Shown: piece by piece, positions 1 through 23,575 of the stretch
How the letters are laid out: the number at the start of each line of letters is the position of its first letter
Position numbering within the stretch: position 1 is the first letter of the stretch
Source: a virus
Virus record (IMG/VR): IMGVR_UViG_3300020334_000013
Location: 1 to 23,587 of that record
Reading direction: 5' to 3' (one strand)
DNA: 23,587 nucleotides
The notes under the pieces: model-generated
The model's database searches: none
What the model saw: only the letters and a program-made list of their open reading frames with translations
Told to the model about the DNA's origin: nothing
Translations under genes and position numbers: made by a program

Positions 1-3000
1 TTGGTTTTAAATGATAGAAACCTTGATGCTGCTGATAGAATTGAAGAGAACAAAGAATTCATTGCATATGAAGCATATGGATATATTACAGCAAAGTATC
101 CAAGTCTTCTAATCAAATCTGGTATCACTATTGAGAAATGTCGTCGTGATATTGGTTATCTGATTGATGCTACAGTACAAGATTTGAGACTGGGTGGTAA
201 CATCAACACCATTCAGGCAGCCGAGTCATACTATGTTGGTAACAACCTCTCTTATATTATTGGAGAACTATCTGAGACTCTAGAAGGTTACAACTACGCT
301 AGAGACTTGGCAATCGCAGCAATGAGAAACTATTCTTATCTGCGTCAAGGAGCAACAACAACTGCATCCTCTTCTATTGTCAACGTTGGCGATACCTCTG
401 GAATCGTTCAGGGTATGGTTGTTGCAGATTATGATCCTTCGCAGTTTACTGATGGTAAACTAAACTCTGGTGCAACACGTCCAGCATCTCCTGCAATCCC
501 CGATAATACTTTCGTCAAGCGTGTTATTGACGCAACTACCATTGAGTTGGGTCAGAAAGCAACATTTAGTGAGAAGAAAGTTGTATCTGATCGTTTCGGT
601 GATGCAAGAGATTTAATGCTTGCTAACAAAGCATTTATTGCTGCTGAAGCATATGACCGTATGGTCCTTGACTTCCCTGGTTTTGTTACTCCTACAGGCA
701 ATTCACAGGACTGCATTGATGATATTGTTGATGTTATTGAAGCAGTTGCAGAAAACACCGCTTTCGGTGGTAATGCTGAAACATTTGATGCGGCATACTT
801 ATATGAGACTGGAGCACATGTTTCGGGAGAAGAAGCAGAAACTGTCAAGGCATTTACATATGCACGTGACATGTGTATTCAGGTCATGCGTAATGAGGAT
901 GTATTTGTATTTGGCACGCATGGTTTAACTCAGACCAAAGATACATCTATCACTTATGTTGCACCTGAGCTAGTTGCTGATCGTAATGGTGATGCTCGTG
1001 ACCTTATCTTGGCAAACAAGAATCTCATTGCTAATGAAGCAGTTGAGAGAATGCTTCAGAAGTATCCTACATTTACTGTTGCTGGTGGTAACCAAAACTG
1101 TATTGATGACGTTGTAGATCTCCTAGAAGCAGTTGCTGATAACGTTGCATATGGTGGTAACGATAAGACTTGGGATGCAGCATACTCGTATGTAAAGGGT
1201 GCTCACGTTGCTGGCGAAGAGACTGAGACACTATATGTCTTTGAGCAAGCGAAAGAAATGGCTGCTCAAGTGATGAGAAACCAGAAGATTCTCTCTATGG
1301 GATCTCATGGTCTATCACAGACATTTGATAGCAGTATTACATATGATCTTCCTGATCCTGTCATTGATCGTAATGGTGACGCACGCAATCTGATCGTAGC
1401 AAATAAAACTCTTATTGCTAATGAAGCATATGCAAGAATGCTTGCACAAAATGCTGGATTTGTGCCACCTACAGGAAATGCACAAGATTGTATTGATGAC
1501 ATCCTAGATTTTGTTGAGGAAATTTCTTATAACGTTGCTTTCGGTGGCAATGACAGAACTTGGGATATGTCAAATCTCTATGTCACTGGCGCTCATGTTG
1601 CTGGCGAAGAGACTCAAACAGTCCAAGCATTTGATTATGCTAGAGACCTGATGGTTCAGGCAATGAGAAATGAGGTTATCCTTCCTGTAGGATCTCATGG
1701 TCTCACCCAGTCATTTGATAATACTATTACTGTCAATGCACCAACTCCAACTGACAATAAGTCAGCTGATGCTAAGAATCTAATTCTTGCAAACAAAACT
1801 TTCATTGCTGAAATTGCATATGGAAGAATGCAAACTCAGTATCCTTCCTTCACTGTACCTACTGGTAACTCGCAGGATTGCATTGATGATATCATTGACA
1901 TGATTGAGGTTGTTGCATACAACCTAGCATTTGGTGGTAATGATCGCACTTGGGACGCTGCAAATCTATATGCAACTGGTGCTCATGTTGCAGGTGAAGA
2001 AGCGCAGACAATCACTGCGTTTACTGAAGCAAAGGACATAATGATTGAGGTTATGAGAAATGAGGCAGTCACCGTTGGTGGTCACACTGCTCTAACTCAG
2101 TCATTTGATAATACTATTACTGCTGACACTCAGACACCTCTATGTCCCGCTCAGGAGTCAACAATCAACACCTTGGTTACTATTCTAACCAACACGATTA
2201 CATCTGCTCCTCTTCTATACAATGTAACTCGTACATTCTCTAACGGATCTTGTAACGATGTACGTTCTTCTATTGAGACATTAACTGCTATTGCAACTAA
2301 TGCAGTAACATCTCCTGGATCTCTTGCATCTGTTACTAGAACAGTTTCTGTAGGATCATGTGAGGACGTAAGATCTACAATCAATACTCTATTCAAGATT
2401 GTTGAGGATGCTGTTGCAACTCCTACAACCTTGTCTTCAGTCCTTAGAACTGTATCTAATGGTTCATGTCAGAATGTTGCTTCTGCAATTACCACGTTGT
2501 TCCAGATTGTAAACAATACAATCTTGAACCCTGGTTATCTTCAGAGCGTTGATAGAGTTGAGTCGCCACTTGGACTATCATTCGGTCCATCTGTTAATGC
2601 TAATGCATCAACAACTAATTCCTATCTGTATTTCACACTAACTTCTGGTGTATATACCAGTCAGTTCTCACCAACCACTGACGAGACTATTACTCAGCAT
2701 ACTTCTTATCCTGAGTGCGCTGATCAAGCAACTGCTATTCGTCAGTTCTTCACTAATATCTCCACTATTATTCAGACTGGACTTAACTCTGTTCCTAGGG
2801 TTGAACCATCTCAGTTGACTACAGAACTCGCTTCTAGAGCAACTGTATGGACTTTACGCACTGGTCAGGGATCTAACCCACATAACCTGGAAACTGGTAC
2901 ACCTGTAAGACTTGTACCACGTCCTCGTTACGATAGTGTAACCAACTCTTATGTTGATGTTGACAAGAGAAAGATCAGACTACCAAATGGTTTTGAAACA

Positions 3001-9841: not shown

Positions 9842-11533
9842 ATGACAGTAAGATACGACTCAATAAAAACCATGCGATCTGCCAAGATTGGCACTATCAT
9901 GCCATGGGGAGGAGATGGGGGTACTGGATTCTTGGAATCTAATATCCCCAAGGGATGGATTACTTGTAGTGGTCAAACATTGTCTGCTTCAGATTATCCT
10001 CTGTTAGCAGCTGCATTAGGTGATTCTTACGGAGGTAAGATGACTGACGCAGCAGGAAATCATGAGGAATTTCCATATTATGGTACAGATGCGACATTTG
10101 GTTTACCAAATATATCTGCTAAAGTTTTAATAGATCTTGAAAGATCTTATCTAACTCAGGACAAATATAAAGCAAATCAAACTGATCCTTTAGACGCAGT
10201 ATATAATACACAGGGAGATAAACTAGGAGATCTTATTGATGGTTACGGTCAAAACGTCCTAGTAAATACAACATATCAGGCAACATGTGATATTGATTTC
10301 ACTTTAAACTTATCTGGTAATTTATATTTTAAATTTGATAATATTACCATGGGTGCTCCTGATTTTCTAGAGACAGTTTATACTCTCAATAGAAAATTGG
10401 GAATGAACCACACTCCATCACACAGTCATAGTGACAGTATAATGTCAGTTAACCCAAACCCTACTGGTCCAATGGTTTTCCGAACGGACAGAGGTATTGA
10501 TATGACTGGAACTATTACAGATAGTACTTCTTGTAGATATACGAAAGGTCCAATTGAATGTCAAAACAAGGAAGCTGAACCTACTCAATGGTTTAATGGT
10601 GCTACTGACATAACATATTATGGTGATAATACCAGAGAAAATACACTACCTAGAATGGATAGATTCTATGAGTTTGTTCAAGATAGTAGTGGAAAAGATT
10701 ATTGGGGATTTATTCCTGCAGGAAAAGATAATTGGCCTACAACTGATAGAGAACAATTGGGAGGAGGAACTGGACCTACCAATTTGACATGGGAGTCAGT
10801 TATGTTTGAAAGAGGAAACACGGCGTCATATACCACAGAACACGAAATTTCTCACAAAACTCCTTGTCATACTGGAATGTTTCCAAAACCAATGAGGTAT
10901 CAAGGAAAAACAAACTTCCTTGGTTATGACACAGGAGCGCCTATTAGAAGTGATGGATTAGAAGATGATCCAGAAACCTCTCCAGTGTTCACTGTGTCTG
11001 GAGTTACAATTGCAGCACAAAGTAATAAAATCACGTTACCATCTAATACTAATATTAGTAGATTATACACAGCAGGTACAGAAACGTGGTATCAATATGA
11101 TAAAATCACTCCATTGATGGTTGTTGTACCAGTCAATGCAGACAATAAGTATCATTACTTTGAAGAAGGTACATATGTACAATCAGTTGAGAATAAAGGA
11201 ACAGAAGCTGCACCAATTTATGAACTTACACTGAATGTTCAGGTAAAAAATAGTGGAACAATTGACTTGGCATTTAAAAACAATACGTGGCCAACTACAA
11301 TGAACGTTATTGATACATCAAAAGATCCTAAAGAGCAAGTTTTTAGAGCTCATAATCACGGAAGTTTTGAAATTTCTCAGGGTATTGGATCTATTGCAAG
11401 TCCTCCTTCACATACTGCAAATGATGCAGATGGATCTGCTTTAACGGCAGATAGTCTAGAAGATGCACTAAATATTACGGTTGATACTACACAACCTAAC
11501 GTAACAATGACGTTCATAATCAAAGCATACTGA
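9842..11533 (+). CDS. Tail collar-domain fibre protein with two HxH sites (first of three)
   Basis: Probable trimeric tail fibre or short-fibre/adhesin subunit of the virion (563 residues). Near the N-terminus (about residues 16-65) is a phage tail collar domain: IGTIMPW, then PKGWITCSGQTLSASDYPLL and LGDSYGG, followed by FGLPN. Two HxH motifs, H194-S-H196 in a TPSHSH context and H504-N-H506 in AHNHG, match the pattern by which T4 gp12 and the gp37 tip bind iron inside a trimer. A middle segment with CHTGMFPKPMRYQG and FLGYDTGAPI resembles motifs I recall from other cyanophage fibres. It ends in FIIKAY, like its two neighbours. No strong ribosome site precedes the ATG. The stop overlaps the next start (TGATG), implying coupled translation. 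Which fibre it forms cannot be decided from sequence alone. Confidence 0.85.
   Translation: MTVRYDSIKTMRSAKIGTIMPWGGDGGTGFLESNIPKGWITCSGQTLSASDYPLLAAALGDSYGGKMTDAAGNHEEFPYYGTDATFGLPNISAKVLIDLERSYLTQDKYKANQTDPLDAVYNTQGDKLGDLIDGYGQNVLVNTTYQATCDIDFTLNLSGNLYFKFDNITMGAPDFLETVYTLNRKLGMNHTPSHSHSDSIMSVNPNPTGPMVFRTDRGIDMTGTITDSTSCRYTKGPIECQNKEAEPTQWFNGATDITYYGDNTRENTLPRMDRFYEFVQDSSGKDYWGFIPAGKDNWPTTDREQLGGGTGPTNLTWESVMFERGNTASYTTEHEISHKTPCHTGMFPKPMRYQGKTNFLGYDTGAPIRSDGLEDDPETSPVFTVSGVTIAAQSNKITLPSNTNISRLYTAGTETWYQYDKITPLMVVVPVNADNKYHYFEEGTYVQSVENKGTEAAPIYELTLNVQVKNSGTIDLAFKNNTWPTTMNVIDTSKDPKEQVFRAHNHGSFEISQGIGSIASPPSHTANDADGSALTADSLEDALNITVDTTQPNVTMTFIIKAY
11468..11474 (+). promoter_or_regulatory. Possible T4-type late promoter element inside a fibre gene
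   Basis: CTAAATA lies 59 bases before the next fibre start. It resembles the T4 late -10 consensus TATAAATA and its cyanophage variants. A short AT-rich motif inside a coding region can occur by chance, so support is weak. Confidence 0.2.
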
Positions 11534-12912
11534 TGCCAGCATTTTACGCCAAAGAAAGATCTAAGTATGGTAATCTATCAGGTCAGGTTATTATTTGGCC
11601 GATGGAATATAATGGTGATCCAAGCACTGCCGTAAATAGAGCAAAATTACCTGCAGGATATCTTAAATGTGATGGTGCAAAATACTTCGCTGCTGATTAT
11701 CCTGCCTTAGCAGCGATCTTAGGAACTGGTAGTAATTGCAAGTATCTTAGGAGAAATCCTGATGGTACAGAATTTGATATTCTATCTGATGAGCAATTCA
11801 TGGTTCCTGATTTGGGATCAAAATATCCAGAACCAACATCTGGTGCTAACGCTGGATCATATAATAATATCAGATTACCTAATGCTTTAGGTAATTTGGT
11901 AAGTAGATCTGGTATTGGTATTGAAGCAACGTCTGCAATTGGTGATAGCGTAACTATTACCTATTCTGGTCAAATTACAGTTCCTAGTCAAGAAATTCCT
12001 TTGAGAGGTAGACCATCATGGGAATATGCTGGTGACACCCATTACACTGATATTGAAGGTGTTGAAGAAAATATGGTACATGGTCACTTGCATTTGCATA
12101 GTGCAGTAAGAGCAAGAAATTTACAGACCAATGAAACATCATCTAATGAACCAAATCCTAATGGTGGTCGTACAGGTCGTAAGAATGCGTCAACAATACC
12201 AATTCAAGATTGGTTAGATGCTACTAGATATGATAATGATAGCTCTCAACCACCAGGAAGTGCTCAAGCACCTTGTAAAGCAATTGATAAGTGGAGATCA
12301 TCTGCAAGTACAACTCAGAACTTAGTTGTTGGTACACAAGAGACTTTATATTATGGTTATTGTATCTTTGGATATGGGCAGCAATCATACACTTATGGTT
12401 GCTTGAGTAATGAAGAATATACTCTTGATGGTGGAGAATTAGAAGGATCTCCAAATGGATCTGATGTTGCTAGATATGGAAACGCAGTAGAAGTCCTTGG
12501 TATTTGTGTATCTAGTCCATCATGGCCAGAAGTAAATTGGGACAATGATGTTCCAATTACATATGAACAGGGTTATCCTGGAGTTCCTACGGATTTTAAT
12601 AATGTGAGTTTACATGATGTAGTTCCTATGCAATCAAACCAAGAACATAGAGAAAATAGAGCAATCACTGATGTTGTAAACGAAACAACTGATACCGCTG
12701 ATTTAGCAATTGCTGCAGGTACAGACCCAACTAGACACAATCACCGTATTGATTTAGAGAGAGGTGATCATAACTATAAAGTAAAGACGAATGCAATCAA
12801 TGTTCCACCTGAAAATTTAACTACCAGAATGGACATTGGAGCAGACTCTTCAGTTTCTATTGATTCTGCTACTGCACCATTTATTGTTATGGAATACTTA
12901 ATTAAGATTTAA
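11533..12912 (+). CDS. Tail collar-domain fibre protein with two HxH sites (second of three)
   Basis: Second collar-type fibre/adhesin candidate (459 residues). The collar domain spans about residues 18-95: GQVIIWPMEY, PAGYLKCDGAKYFAADYPAL and AAILGTG, followed by FMVPDLGSKYPE. A His-rich metal-site candidate, H183-G-H185-L-H187-L-H189, and a second pair, H402-N-H404 in TRHNHRID, fit the HxH iron sites of T4-type receptor-binding tips. The middle is Asn/Ser/Gly-rich with several cysteines and no recognised domain. The C-terminus is MEYLIKI, parallel to the endings of both neighbours. The start shares a base with the upstream stop. Paralogy to the flanking genes is evident in layout but weak in sequence, as expected for fast-evolving host-recognition proteins. 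Confidence 0.82.
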   Translation: MPAFYAKERSKYGNLSGQVIIWPMEYNGDPSTAVNRAKLPAGYLKCDGAKYFAADYPALAAILGTGSNCKYLRRNPDGTEFDILSDEQFMVPDLGSKYPEPTSGANAGSYNNIRLPNALGNLVSRSGIGIEATSAIGDSVTITYSGQITVPSQEIPLRGRPSWEYAGDTHYTDIEGVEENMVHGHLHLHSAVRARNLQTNETSSNEPNPNGGRTGRKNASTIPIQDWLDATRYDNDSSQPPGSAQAPCKAIDKWRSSASTTQNLVVGTQETLYYGYCIFGYGQQSYTYGCLSNEEYTLDGGELEGSPNGSDVARYGNAVEVLGICVSSPSWPEVNWDNDVPITYEQGYPGVPTDFNNVSLHDVVPMQSNQEHRENRAITDVVNETTDTADLAIAAGTDPTRHNHRIDLERGDHNYKVKTNAINVPPENLTTRMDIGADSSVSIDSATAPFIVMEYLIKI

Positions 12913-12917
12913 TAGTA

Positions 12918-15900
12918 ATGGCACAAAGTTATAGAAATGCTAGACAGGGATTCCTGACCGACATGTTGGTGGATACTACACCAATCGGATCTATTGTACC
13001 TAATTTAAAGAGCACTGACAATAGTTTTGATCACAGTTACGTTAAATCTGGTGACATAAACTATGGTAATTTGAGTGAGAAGACTGGTAATGCATACGTC
13101 AATGGTGATGATCCAGCATATACTCATGAAGGATATTTGTATTGCGATGGATCTACATACGAGATTTCTGATTATCCAATGTTATTTTCTGTCATTGGAA
13201 ATAAGTATGGTGGTAGAGCAAGTCAAGGCATTGATATTACAAATCCTGGAAGTGGATATACATCTAATCCTGTAGTTACAGTTGATGCTCCCAGTGGCGC
13301 AAATTCTACTCAAGCAACTGCATATGCTGAAATTGATAACACTGGTAAGTTAGTTAAGATTGATACTATCATAGCTGGTAGCGGATATGATCCCAATAAT
13401 CCTCCCTCGGTTACTATCACAGGTGGTGGTGGATCTGGTGCTACAGCGGTAGTTAGAATTGATCCTGATACTGGTGGTCTTTCTGGAATAACTACAGCAA
13501 ATGTTCTTGATTGGTGGGGTATTACTAACCTCGGAACATTTGCAGTACCTGATACTAAAACCAGAAAAATTGTAGGAAACAATGCAGTATTTGGTAACAA
13601 CTCTCCTAACGTAGGTAATTCTTCCCTTGGTGTTGGCATTACAGGTGGTCAATGGTATTTTGCTAAAGAATCCCAGGATGAGTATTTTTCATTGGGTAGA
13701 ATTACTACTGCTGGATATGATCAAGTAGTTGAGACTACTGGTTGTACTATCATTGGTAGTCAAGATGTGACTGTCTCAATGAGAGAGACAAAACTCACAG
13801 GAGTCTTCCAGCATAGTCATGCAGTATTTCATACTATACCTGGAGATAACCAGTATATTGCTGAGGCAAGTGGAGACAGATATTTGGCTGACTTCAAGGA
13901 AGGATCTGGAAGAGTTCAAAGATGGTATCCAACCTCAGGTCAGGTATTTACGCATAAACATGCGTTGTTAAGAAGACCAAATGATGATAATACAGTTGCA
14001 ACATATGATGTATGGGATGCATTTGGTGGCGCTAGTGGCAATGGATCTATAAAAAATCCATTAGATGCTCCAGCAGATCAAAAATACATGGCATCAGGTG
14101 CTGCAGGAGCAGGTAGTTGGGACTTTCAAACATTTATTCCTAACCCAACATTCTATAGAACTCAAGGTAACTCTGTAATTGGCAACAGAGATATTACTAC
14201 AGGTGGAACACCTATTATTGACTATACAAATGAATGGGAATTCACCAACCCTGGTAACTATACGGTAGATTTCAGTACAGTTACTGGTAGTCCCGAATCA
14301 TTCCAATTCATTGCCATTGGAGGTGGCGGATCTGGTGCTAATGGTGATACAGGTGGAAACTCTGGTGGAGACACTTCTATTAAAGTTGGTGATGGATCAA
14401 TTATTCACCTAGTTGGAAAAGGTGGAGGCGGCGGCGGAGCAGCAAGTGGTCAATCAGGTGGAAATGGTGGTAGTAAAGGTGGTACACAGAAACTTGGTTC
14501 AAAGAGTGCTGGTAAGTTTGACGGATTGGATGGTACTGATGGTGGTAATGGAGCAGCATCAAATGGTTATCCAAAGGTAGATTATCCAAGTAATCCTGGC
14601 ACTGGAGGAATTGGTGGTTTACTCGGACGTGCTGCTGTTGATATGGGACCAGTTTATGGTGCAGGAACCAACGGAGTTAATAGAGAAGTTACAGGACAAA
14701 GTGGTACAGTTGATACTGAATTAACTAGTGACGGAACATTTAATTTACAAGGTATTAATAATCCTACCTTTGTTGCATTCTGGGTTCATGGAGGAAAAGG
14801 TGGTGGTGTATCCAAAGGTAGTGTAACTGGACATCCTGGAACAAGAGTATATGGAGAATTAAAAGCTAGCGCACGTGCCACATTTACTCAAAATTCTTGG
14901 TCTGTAAAAATAGGATATGCAGGCGGCACTGGTGGCAATAGTCCTGGTGGTGGCGGTTCTGGCGCTGGATCTGGTAGTGGTAAAAGAGGTGGACAAGGAC
15001 ATATTCCCCCACCACCATCATCAGGCGGTCCTGGCGCTTCTGGTGGCGGCGGCGGTGGATGCACTGCTCTGTATAGAGGATCTCAGCTTGTTATTGGTGC
15101 TGGTGGCGGCGGTGGTGCTGGTGCTGATGGATATGATGGTGGTCCTGGACAAAATGGTATTGGACCTGTTGGACTACAGCAGGTTACATCAGCTATCGGA
15201 ACTGGTTCTGGTGGTGTTGGTGGTAATTATGGATGTATCGGTGGTGGCGGCGGAGGCGGCGGCGGTGGTGCCGCTGTCAATGGTTTCACAACTCCTGGTG
15301 GTACAGGTGGTGGCGCTCCTGGTGGTCCTGGTGGCGCTCCTGGAGGAGGCGGCGGTCACCAAGGTGGTGGCGGTGGAATGACTGGAACTAGTTCTATTAG
15401 AACTGATTACTTCCAAAGTGCTTCTCAGTCTAGTTCTGGAAGAACTAACGGTAAAGTTAGAATGAAAGTTGATTATAATAATGATTACTGGACTTCTGGC
15501 GGCGGCGGTGGAGGCGGCGCTGGATCTTGGAATGGTACTACATCATGGAGTTCATTAGGCAATCCTACTTCAGCTCAAATTACTGTTGGTGATGGAGGAT
15601 CTTCGCCAGGTGGTGGTGTTGCTAAGGGTGGCGTTGGTTATGCTAAACTTGGATTGGGAATTATCACTGGATATATTGGTGGAACAACTACCACTAGTGT
15701 TGGTGACATATATGAGGAAGGAACTGCTGATAATGTTGATTGGGACGTTGATATCGTATCTTTTGGTGACGGAACTGGCAATCAAGGAAACTTTAAAAAA
15801 CCATCGGGAACACCTACTATTGTGATAACTGGTGGTGGTGGATCTGGTGCTACTGCAACGGTTAGCACATCTGGAGCTGGCACTGTAAATAATGTTACAT

Positions 15901-16754
15901 TAGGATCTGGTGGTAGCAATTATACTGAACAACCATATGCTTATGTTGTAAATGGATCTGCTGGGGGAACAGTTGTAAATGCAACGGTAGACTCAAATGC
16001 AGGGACTGTAACTGACATTACATTAGTTCCAAACTCTTCTCAACCATATGAGAATATGCTTTTGTTTGGTGGAGTTAATGCGAAAACTAGTAAAACAAGA
16101 TATGTTATTGTAAAACCAACGGATTGTAGTAAAGTCAATTACATCGGTATTAAAGCAGCTAGAGGTAATGGTGTAAATGGTGGTGATAGACCAGAAGAGA
16201 CACTAAAAGTATATTATCAATTACCTTCTTCAAGTACTTGGGTGTTGATTGATACTATCATCAATCCCAATGCTAATAGAAATGATCCTATTATTGGAAA
16301 TGTACCTCCAGTTAGTGAAGCATGGGATGGAACATCTGGTAACACAAAGTGGTACACATATAATGTGGCACTACCACAAGCAGCAAAAGAAAATAATGTA
16401 AAAATCAAATTTGAACAACCACGAGCAAATGCAAATAGTGCTAATGATAATGCTGATAATACAGACCACTATGGTATTGCTGAAGTAATTTACTGGAAAG
16501 AGAAAGTAACAGAACTAGTATTCACTCCAACAGCAGGAGCAATCTCTAAACCAGCAGTTGATTCTCTTACATATACTGTTCAAGGTGAAACAGGACCAGG
16601 AATTACATATAGCTCTGGTTTAAATGCTAGTGATGCTAGGTTGACAATGAAGTCAACTACGAAAGTAGAACCAATTGCTTCTCTAGACCCAGACTTTGAT
16701 ATTCCTCTACTTACACCATATAGACTTTGTAAGTATCTTATCAAAGCTTTCTAA
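12918..16754 (+). CDS. Glycine-rich tail collar-domain adhesin with reelin-like beta-sandwich
   Basis: Probable receptor-binding adhesin (1278 residues). Order: IGSIVPNL and HEGYLYCDGSTYEISDYPML...GNKYGG start a tail collar domain (about 21-100); an insert of ~105 residues (101-206) carries GSGYTxNPxVT / GGGGSGATA beta-repeats; the collar resumes with TFAVPDTKTRKIVG. HxH sites are H299-S-H301 (plus H305) and H346-K-H348. Residues about 468-908 are glycine-rich with many runs of 4-10 Gly, recalling the polyglycine-helix motifs of T-even gp38-type adhesins. Another GGGGSGATA repeat sits at about 962-1048. Residues about 1061-1192 look like a reelin-type beta-sandwich (GIKAARGNGVNGG, VYYQLPSSSTWVLIDT, LPQAAKENNVKIKFEQP, YGIAEVIYW). 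The protein ends CKYLIKAF. The gene lies 5 bases after the previous fibre. Structural role is strong; adhesin role is inferred. Confidence 0.85.
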   Translation: MAQSYRNARQGFLTDMLVDTTPIGSIVPNLKSTDNSFDHSYVKSGDINYGNLSEKTGNAYVNGDDPAYTHEGYLYCDGSTYEISDYPMLFSVIGNKYGGRASQGIDITNPGSGYTSNPVVTVDAPSGANSTQATAYAEIDNTGKLVKIDTIIAGSGYDPNNPPSVTITGGGGSGATAVVRIDPDTGGLSGITTANVLDWWGITNLGTFAVPDTKTRKIVGNNAVFGNNSPNVGNSSLGVGITGGQWYFAKESQDEYFSLGRITTAGYDQVVETTGCTIIGSQDVTVSMRETKLTGVFQHSHAVFHTIPGDNQYIAEASGDRYLADFKEGSGRVQRWYPTSGQVFTHKHALLRRPNDDNTVATYDVWDAFGGASGNGSIKNPLDAPADQKYMASGAAGAGSWDFQTFIPNPTFYRTQGNSVIGNRDITTGGTPIIDYTNEWEFTNPGNYTVDFSTVTGSPESFQFIAIGGGGSGANGDTGGNSGGDTSIKVGDGSIIHLVGKGGGGGGAASGQSGGNGGSKGGTQKLGSKSAGKFDGLDGTDGGNGAASNGYPKVDYPSNPGTGGIGGLLGRAAVDMGPVYGAGTNGVNREVTGQSGTVDTELTSDGTFNLQGINNPTFVAFWVHGGKGGGVSKGSVTGHPGTRVYGELKASARATFTQNSWSVKIGYAGGTGGNSPGGGGSGAGSGSGKRGGQGHIPPPPSSGGPGASGGGGGGCTALYRGSQLVIGAGGGGGAGADGYDGGPGQNGIGPVGLQQVTSAIGTGSGGVGGNYGCIGGGGGGGGGGAAVNGFTTPGGTGGGAPGGPGGAPGGGGGHQGGGGGMTGTSSIRTDYFQSASQSSSGRTNGKVRMKVDYNNDYWTSGGGGGGGAGSWNGTTSWSSLGNPTSAQITVGDGGSSPGGGVAKGGVGYAKLGLGIITGYIGGTTTTSVGDIYEEGTADNVDWDVDIVSFGDGTGNQGNFKKPSGTPTIVITGGGGSGATATVSTSGAGTVNNVTLGSGGSNYTEQPYAYVVNGSAGGTVVNATVDSNAGTVTDITLVPNSSQPYENMLLFGGVNAKTSKTRYVIVKPTDCSKVNYIGIKAARGNGVNGGDRPEETLKVYYQLPSSSTWVLIDTIINPNANRNDPIIGNVPPVSEAWDGTSGNTKWYTYNVALPQAAKENNVKIKFEQPRANANSANDNADNTDHYGIAEVIYWKEKVTELVFTPTAGAISKPAVDSLTYTVQGETGPGITYSSGLNASDARLTMKSTTKVEPIASLDPDFDIPLLTPYRLCKYLIKAF
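13217..13533 (+). repeat. GSGYT/GGGGSGATA beta-repeat insert within the collar domain
   Basis: The encoded segment alternates I-x-x-x-GSGYTxNPxVT and GGGGSGATAxV units, with at least two full units. It separates the collar's YGG from its F-x-V-P-D half, which are normally only a short stretch apart in this family. This is an in-frame domain insertion, inferred from motif order. Confidence 0.7.
14320..15640 (+). repeat. Glycine-rich block of the adhesin gene
   Basis: About 440 codons dominated by GGN, with Gly runs near 14421, 15043, 15105, 15239, 15347 and 15500 separated by short variable segments. Runs use GGC far more than isolated glycines do. It is comparable in style to the Gly-rich motifs of T-even gp38 adhesins; a polyglycine II packing is an inference. 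Confidence 0.8.
15803..16060 (+). repeat. Second GGGGSGATA-type beta-repeat module
   Basis: Encodes TIVITGGGGSGATATV, VNNVTLGSGGSNYTEQP and a further degenerate unit (VTDITLVPNSSQPYENM). It is the same repeat family as the insert at 13217-13533, about 2.3 kb away in the same gene, linking the Gly-rich block to the reelin-like domain. Confidence 0.65.
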
Positions 16755-16781: not shown

Positions 16782-17687
16782 ATGTCAACGCAAAATACAG
16801 CTGACATACCAGTGTTACAGGTGCAACTTGACACGGTAAATCAGGAAATTACATATAATGGTACGTCAAAGGTAATTCCTGAGTCTTATTGGAAAGATAC
16901 CCTACTTCCTTTTCTTTATCCTCTATGGGATAGTGATAAAGATAAGTTAATCCTGTTCAATTGGTTTACCAATGACACATACTATGCTAAACGTAGAAGA
17001 CATAAAAAGAATTTTTCTACAGGTGAATATGAGTGGGTTGATTATGAGATGGAGCAACTTGCTGGTGATGAAGGCAAGGCAGTAAAAGATAAATTAGTTG
17101 AAGCATATTATCTTATTGATTCTTTGGAAGAGCAAGAGTTCAACCAAGAACTTGCTAGAATGTATGCTAAAACTTCGTCAGTATCACCTCTCACTATCAG
17201 ACTATCACGTAACTTCCTGTTAGATGAGACAGATTGGGCAATGACATCTGATTCTCCACTTACTGATGATGAGAAAGCAAAATACATTACATATCGTCAA
17301 AAACTGAGAGATATTACAGATCAAGTAGAATTCTCTACCGATGCTGAGAGTGTTAAGTTCCCTATTTCACCTGAATTTTATAATAAAATCTACTCACAGG
17401 ATAATCCTGATGTAGAATATCTTGCAACAGATGATCAAATGATGTCACTTGCAAGACATCAACTTAAGTTATTCAGAGATAAAATTGCAAATTATCTTGT
17501 AATCAAGTCAATCACTGAAACCAACTACTTCAATGCTCTGCTCACTGAGTATGAAACTGTTAAGAATGCAAGAGAATCAAATCAGGTTGAAGATGCATTT
17601 ACACCAGAGCAAATTGCTGAGAGAAAACTATTCCTAGAAGAACTGCTTAAGAAAGTACAGGATGAATTAGATGAGGAAGCATCATGA
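16782..17687 (+). CDS. Putative tail assembly chaperone-like protein
   Basis: Soluble, charged, mostly helical protein of 301 residues without signal peptide or membrane segment. Residues about 137-178 hold RNFLLDETDWAMTSDSPLTD and then YRQKLRDIT, which closely follow the signature of the phage tail assembly chaperone family found beside tail fibres (R-x-x-LL-x-x-TDW ... D-x-P ... YRQxLRDI). Family members with this motif are often shorter, so the ~135 residues before it are an extra domain of unknown role. Position directly after three fibre genes suggests it helps fold or assemble one of them. The C-terminus is an acidic, coiled-coil-like helix (ERKLFLEELLKKVQDELDEE). The next gene starts within its stop (ATGA). 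The chaperone role is inferred from motif and context. Confidence 0.6.
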   Translation: MSTQNTADIPVLQVQLDTVNQEITYNGTSKVIPESYWKDTLLPFLYPLWDSDKDKLILFNWFTNDTYYAKRRRHKKNFSTGEYEWVDYEMEQLAGDEGKAVKDKLVEAYYLIDSLEEQEFNQELARMYAKTSSVSPLTIRLSRNFLLDETDWAMTSDSPLTDDEKAKYITYRQKLRDITDQVEFSTDAESVKFPISPEFYNKIYSQDNPDVEYLATDDQMMSLARHQLKLFRDKIANYLVIKSITETNYFNALLTEYETVKNARESNQVEDAFTPEQIAERKLFLEELLKKVQDELDEEAS

Positions 17688-22545: not shown

Positions 22546-23222
22546 AAAACGTTATCATCGGAGGCGCTCTGCTTGGCATGGCGCATGGCATGAGCGTTGA
22601 AGCAAACGAAGACAAGATTACAAAAGGTTTTTACACCATGGATGCCATGGGTTGTATGCTCCTGCGTGAGTGTACTGATGGTGTTAAACAAGTACACACC
22701 ATGCTTGACGTTTCTACGGAGTATGATGACCCAGAACGTTTCACTGGTGTGGCACATGAATTTAATAGGATGGTTGATGCACTCAAGGTAGTAGGATCAA
22801 ACGTATATCTTGCGGATCAGAAATACTTCCCGATTGGACATCGCGGAGTATATCATACTGTGAGTAACAATATGTACCTGAACAAGGCATATATGCATCG
22901 TCCATCCGCACTCATGAGTGTTGTACGTCATGAAGGATGGCATGCTGCACAGGATTGTATGGCAGGCACTATCAAAAACAATATGATTGCCATCATCCAC
23001 AATGAAGAAGATGTGCCTATGATCTGGCAAGAGCTTGCTAAGCGCACATATAAAGACATGCCTCACGCTATTCCGTGGGAGAAAGAAGCATCATGGGCAG
23101 GTAAAACTGAGAACATGACCATGGAAGCACTACAATCGTGCGCTCGTGGTACAATGTGGACAGATTATGAACCGACACCACTGACTGGTGAGTGGTTGCG
23201 TGAGAATGGTTATATCAAATGA
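22518..23222 (+). CDS. Putative exported zinc metallopeptidase (HEGWH)
   Basis: Probable zinc-dependent peptidase of 234 residues. H138-E-G-W-H142 is a classic HExxH zinc site with the catalytic Glu139, preceded by a hydrophobic/basic helix (ALMSVVRHEGWHAAQDC). E190 in WEKEASWAG is a good third ligand in gluzincin style. The N-terminus (VIIGGALLGMAHGM, residues 12-25, then SVEA) reads as a signal peptide with likely cleavage after A29. Four cysteines (46, 52, 147, 208) lie in the mature part and could form disulphides, fitting a periplasmic location. Translation may start at ATG 22518 or 22524. Substrate unknown: host envelope or peptidoglycan-associated protein, or a role in lysis or superinfection control, are possibilities only. 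The stop overlaps the next start by ATGA. Confidence 0.65.
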   Translation: MVMPIQATLKNVIIGGALLGMAHGMSVEANEDKITKGFYTMDAMGCMLLRECTDGVKQVHTMLDVSTEYDDPERFTGVAHEFNRMVDALKVVGSNVYLADQKYFPIGHRGVYHTVSNNMYLNKAYMHRPSALMSVVRHEGWHAAQDCMAGTIKNNMIAIIHNEEDVPMIWQELAKRTYKDMPHAIPWEKEASWAGKTENMTMEALQSCARGTMWTDYEPTPLTGEWLRENGYIK

Positions 23223-23575
23223 TGCATTACACTACTGCTGTTACCACTGATGCCCAAGACAACTACATCATCACGATCCCAGACCAAATCCTCAACTACC
23301 TTGAGTGGAAAGAAGGTGACACGCTCAACTGGCAAATCTCGGACAGCAAGCAAATCATCATCACCAAAATCAAGAACTCAGAAGAGTCTGGAGGAGAAGA
23401 CCAAGAGTCTAACATCAGTGAAGCAACCCAAGAAGACTGGGAAGATTTCTGGTACAACAGCGAAAGCGAAGGCAAAGACTACGACGAAAGGTACGACCAG
23501 TACATCCAAGAAACAGCAAAAGAAACCTTCGGTCAAGCGTACCACTCGCCAGAACAGCAAGGATCGTGGAGTTAA
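23219..23575 (+). CDS. AbrB/MazE/SpoVT-like swapped-hairpin protein with acidic tail
   Basis: Likely DNA-binding or antitoxin-like small regulator (118 residues). Residues 1-52 match the swapped-hairpin AbrB pattern: a strand (YTTAVTTDAQDNYIITIPDQ), then ILNYLEWKEGDTLNW, then a strand pair (WQISDSKQIIITKI). Similar proteins occur widely in T4-like cyanophages. The C-terminal 65 residues are highly acidic and polar (EESGGEDQESN, DWEDFWYNSESEGKDYDERY) and probably disordered, more than the usual family length. No MazF-type toxin gene is adjacent on either side in the window. Two tandem ATGs (23219, 23222) are possible starts, the first overlapping the peptidase stop. Codon use is strikingly C- and A-ending (AAC, ATC, GAC, GAA), unlike the fibre genes. 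Confidence 0.7.
   Translation: MMHYTTAVTTDAQDNYIITIPDQILNYLEWKEGDTLNWQISDSKQIIITKIKNSEESGGEDQESNISEATQEDWEDFWYNSESEGKDYDERYDQYIQETAKETFGQAYHSPEQQGSWS

Follow-up and report, generated by a model that had tools for sequence, protein, structure and literature searches.

Invariant HxH pairs in three adjacent collar-domain fibers of T4-like cyanophages very probably hold trimeric fibers around metal ions

This work examines three adjacent tail fiber genes, here called A, B, and C, in a 23.6-kb virus record (IMGVR_UViG_3300020334_000013; the whole stretch of 23,587 nt is referred to as the window). Each encoded protein combines a collar domain with two HxH motifs, and since these pairs are invariant across relatives, they very probably hold three-chain fibers together around metal ions. 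We consider it likely that A, B, and C are trimeric collar-domain fibers of the T4 gp12/gp37 type, each with two structural metal sites on the trimer axis. The direct basis for this reading consists of the collar domains, six invariant core HxH motifs, variable inserts, and a core model whose fold matches gp12, gp37, and the fiber of cyanophage A-1(L). From these we infer the trimer, the axial metal, its structural role, and the distal part as host contact.

The window represents part of a T4-like cyanophage genome and displays a five-gene order: a large fiber gene, A, B, C, and a chaperone-like gene. A, B, C, the features within them, and the chaperone-like gene lie on the plus strand. ORF A (9842..11533; 563 amino acids [aa]) encodes a collar-domain short tail fiber resembling gp12 (PF07484, E 2.6e-11; phrog_4591, short tail fiber, E 4.8e-61), with the collar domain at 9890..10039. 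ORF B (11533..12912; 459 aa) encodes a collar-domain tail fiber (PF07484, E 1.1e-07; phrog_4714, tail collar protein, E 3.8e-40; collar domain, 11581..11727), as does ORF C (12918..16754; 1278 aa; PF07484, E 2.1e-10; phrog_30655, virion structural protein; collar domain, 13122..13220). The Pfam name Collar refers to a region of the T4 gp12 fiber, its collar, and not to the phage neck. A preliminary description of three adjacent collar-protein ORFs is thus borne out by translation and by PF07484 matches exceeding the cutoff in all three, except that the end assigned to the trio, position 14000, falls short of the end of ORF C at 16754. The C-terminal strands of the three fibers are also alike (TFIIKAY, EYLIKI, and KYLIKAF).

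Upstream, the large fiber ORF is open from window base 1 (3276 aa, 35 histidines); in window positions 1-2300, several repeats of ~110-130 aa are visible by eye in the translation near its start, with the pattern GN.QDCIDDI...NVAFGGND.TWDA...GAHVAGEE. In Synechococcus phage S-PM2 (NC_006820; L056, 277-5104), 16 tRNA genes are annotated within the coding region of the large fiber gene; ARAGORN finds 0 tRNAs in that region despite the 16 annotated, which looks like a case of shifted coordinates. Downstream of C lies the tail assembly chaperone-like gene (16782..17687; PF16778, E 4.1e-12; phrog_4697, tail assembly chaperone, E 4.5e-33), a probable folding helper. Near the window end, a small ORF (23219-23575) carries a MazE/AbrB-type domain (PF04014, E 4.7e-07).

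The same gene order is found in Synechococcus phage S-WAM2, whose proteins share 37% (A), 42% (B), and 45% (C) identity with those of the window. An uncultured relative of 193 kb is closer, with identities of 76%, 81%, and 72%, respectively. Two photosystem reaction-centre (Photo_RC) genes occur in the 193-kb relative, and such genes are also present in S-WAM2; the orthologous fiber gene order, together with photosystem genes in a close relative, places the window among Kyanoviridae-like T4-type cyanophages. The 193-kb relative additionally contains, distant from the trio, another open frame of 1363 aa with two collar-domain matches (G001:C1:43952-46084, on the contig of L011).

Every histidine position in the preliminary description, which gave two HxH sites per protein, is confirmed by translation. 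In A, the motifs are H194-S-H196 (HxH1; 10421..10429) and H504-N-H506 (HxH2; 11351..11359). In B, HxH1 is H185-L-H187 (12085..12093), the core of a run in which H183, H185, H187, and H189 form three overlapping motifs (HGH183, HLH185, and HLH187), and HxH2 is H402-N-H404 (12736..12744). In C, the pair comprises H299-S-H301 (13812..13820) and H346-K-H348 (13953..13961). Counting overlaps, there are 8 HxH in the 2300 aa of A, B, and C, while the annotated genes adjoining the trio in eight relatives contain 6 in 38,168 aa, a rate that predicts ~0.4 for the trio. When HxH was looked for in the upstream 3276-aa ORF and the downstream chaperone-like gene of the window, none was found.

Histidine clusters might nonetheless arise by chance and lack any metal function. 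Composition-preserving shuffles of each protein alone yield two or more HxH in 1.6% of cases for A, 1.4% for B, and 0.6% for C, frequencies that leave such an origin some room for a single protein. What rules it out is conservation, as the six core motifs are invariant in distant homologues despite free synonymous change, and we regard chance clustering as having a negligible probability. Homologues from IMG/VR and from cultured phages were aligned, with 32 sequences for A and 34 each for B and C. No row covering any of the six core motifs lacks either histidine (32/32 homologues for both motifs of A, 34/34 for both motifs of B, and all covering rows for both motifs of C), at identities down to ~30%; invariant columns account for only 5% of the alignment for A, 3.5% for B, and 12% for C. 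The middle residue of the motif varies and the histidine codons mix CAT and CAC, indicating that the constraint acts at the protein level. Conservation of the histidines among orthologues, which had been proposed as a check, therefore holds for all six core motifs.

The one site that required redefinition is that of B, which had been described as spanning H183-H189. Conservation is limited to H185 and H187; among the 34 B sequences, H183 occurs in 65% and H189 in 41%. As the outer histidines are not conserved, the run contains one core motif, and its interpretation as a single larger quadruple-histidine site was ruled out.

When the survey was widened to 63 A-type and 70 B-type proteins, neither site was missing from any of them. 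This count includes four flagged A rows in which HxH2 lies ~71 residues before the end, just beyond the range used for counting, and one flagged B row that is an ORF ending early with the second HxH retained. Eight cultured cyanophages (S-PM2, Syn1, S-CAM3, ACG-2014h, ACG-2014j, Sf-CH1b, S-RSM4, and S-WAM2) carry an HxH pair in each of A, B, and C, the third fiber of the distant phages being assigned by gene position, annotation, and C-terminal sequence rather than by full alignment. A few proteins have an extra HxH, and none occurs in the structural genes that separate B from C in several of the eight phages. The trios of Kyanoviridae (S-WAM2, S-RSM4, S-PM2, Syn1, and others) are orthologous to that of the window and share its HxH pairs, whereas their inserts differ in length and sequence and many possess additional structural genes in the interval from B to C.

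The motifs are arranged in a regular manner along the chains. In A, a variable insert (10430..11350) separates HxH1 from HxH2, the gap measuring 137-326 aa in 63 relatives; this insert is likely a distal domain. In B, the corresponding insert (12094..12735) shows two size classes among relatives, with gaps of 49-57 or 194-255 aa, and in S-PM2-type B proteins it is absent. From HxH2 to the C terminus, by comparison, the distance in A and B is nearly constant (58-63 aa in most). In C, the two motifs are 47 aa apart and the variable stretch comes after the pair, where a glycine-rich domain (14310..15617; residues ~465-900) has runs of up to 10 glycines and gives no Pfam match. This domain could be receptor binding, and it recalls gp38, the polyglycine adhesin found in S16-like phages.

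The layout has precedents in T4. The order in gp37 is collar, HxH at 883/915/929, tip, HxH at 966/980/989/998, and C-terminal strand, and that in gp12 is collar, a single HxH at 445, and the C-terminal part. Judged by these orders, the chains of A, B, and C would run outward and return much as in gp37, with putative metal sites flanking a replaceable part; the variable insert would then be the host-contacting tip. The HxH motifs of A, B, and C sit between the collar and the C-terminal strand, as do the Zn site of gp12 and the seven Fe sites of gp37. T4 gp12 (1ocy and 5iv5) is like the three fibers in its collar, in the HxH before the C-terminal strand, and, by annotation, in its placement in the T4-like tail gene order. 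It is unlike them in being a single gene rather than three, in having Zn at its site, and in possessing one HxH rather than two, the last of which counts against our proposal. The gp37 tip (2xgf) shares a collar-like domain, HxH flanking a variable tip, and, probably, a C-terminal strand that returns to the collar; however, it has seven HxH sites on a long needle, whereas each window fiber has two and its distal part is far larger.

Structure searches point in the same direction. A profile of A matches T4 gp12 chains in the PDB over the collar (1ocy, E 1e-06), which makes gp12 the closest solved relative as judged by sequence. The C profile gives only a marginal gp12 match, and PDB sequence searches with B profiles return nothing relevant. 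A core model of a short B-type relative (48 sequences) has a mean pLDDT of 54, with the collar at ~86 and the HxH regions poor. With E values of up to 10 admitted, Foldseek returns five matches for this model, and no single one is significant by itself; in a second look, the four matches obtained are all collar-domain fibers (8kec, Z 7.5; 1ocy, Z 6.4; 5iv5, Z 5.9; and 2xgf, Z 5.4). The B-type core aligned only with trimeric collar-domain fibers, namely, gp12 and gp37 of T4 and the fiber of cyanophage A-1(L), over positions 14-294, a span that includes the collar and reaches the C-terminal strand, in a model partly of low confidence and at moderate Z. The AlphaFold model of A (22 sequences) has a mean pLDDT of 40. 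Around the HxH motifs, pLDDT is ~22-44 in both monomer models, as expected when intertwined trimers are folded as single chains. Three comparisons were set aside: the Foldseek/VIA matches of the A model cover only a small beta domain (~376-484) and are nonspecific; aligning the A core to gp12 by profile places HKH445 of gp12 beside HxH1 but introduces many gaps and is unreliable; and the B core did not align in this way.

Under the proposed trimeric reading, each chain would fold into a gp12-type collar domain, pass through two HxH strands, and close with a final strand folded back against the collar. Every site of the trimer would receive one HxH from each chain, so that a single metal ion on the threefold axis would be coordinated octahedrally by six imidazoles, with two ions per trimer. 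As buried structural elements, these ions would keep the intertwined chains in register, lock them together, and clamp the variable distal part at its base; this host-contacting part would be the insert separating the two motifs in A and B and the glycine-rich domain that follows them in C. Such a device is known from R1/R2 pyocin fibers, in which six histidines from the HxH of three chains form a proven octahedral iron site, gp37 and gpV being similar (PMC6116203); the pyocin fibers differ from those of the window in having one iron site and a different domain set. The gp37 substitutions H929A and H931A each abolish plaque formation (PMC6957217). The favored published view is that the HxH metal serves trimer folding.

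The metal in A, B, and C would be Fe(II) or, possibly, Zn. The preliminary description held that the HxH motifs of gp12 and gp37 bind iron in T4, which stands for gp37, but the solved gp12 site contains octahedral Zn at H445/H447 (PMC6116203, PMC3004832). With gp12 as the closest solved relative by sequence, the histidine pairs might bind Zn or another transition metal instead of iron, their structural role unchanged. We view this as the less probable case, though one deserving consideration: gp12 was reconstituted with zinc salt, from which its Zn possibly originates, its natural metal being unknown (PMC6116203), and octahedral geometry is unusual for Zn, while the other HxH fibers hold iron (PMC6116203, PMC3004832).

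A further reading extends iron to adsorption. The preliminary description suggested a multifiber, iron-loaded adsorption apparatus; the multifiber set and the conserved HxH pairs hold up, and iron and an adsorption role in A, B, and C are possible. According to the Ferrojan Horse hypothesis (Bonnain 2016, as cited in PMC11705849), fiber iron matters for marine infection, cyanophages included, and HxH motifs are reported there in cyanophage tails. Applied to the window, fiber iron would exploit host iron uptake receptors as a marine adaptation to iron limitation. The iron in the HxH sites of gp37, the pyocin fiber, and gpV (PMC6116203) and the conservation of all six sites agree with this scenario. 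A marine counterpart is the tail fiber of Alteromonas phage R22Y, which has several HxH and proposed iron binding; R22Y is a podovirus with six motifs in one protein, and its case rests on prediction and docking (PMC11705849). Against the scenario, sites of known structure lie buried along the axis, where folding and stiffness are the roles ascribed to them (PMC6116203), and nonmarine coliphages and pyocins use the same motif; we therefore deem a role in hijacking iron receptors quite unlikely.

At least one 2OG-Fe(II) oxygenase gene adjoins the collar fibers and chaperone in many cyanophages (L054, L055, L059, and L062-L065), and these enzymes might hydroxylate the fibers. A link with the trio was dropped, as S-WAM2 has none annotated beside it; the nine downstream ORFs of the window likewise give no 2OG-Fe(II) oxygenase Pfam match.

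The HxH metal device in phage fibers and the marine iron idea are already published. Two sites in each of three fibers across Kyanoviridae may be a new pattern, which we did not find described in a limited literature search. It is improbable, but worth stating, that six metal sites on three fibers are obligate throughout this lineage, filled with iron in nature, and possibly involved in adsorption. If this were true, and if each fiber were present six times, a virion would carry up to 36 ions, and these abundant phages would constitute a defined pool of organically bound iron. The six sites give an upper number for the metal carried there by such virions, and the invariant core histidines provide the exact residues with which the need for fiber metal in folding or adsorption can be tested in abundant marine phages.
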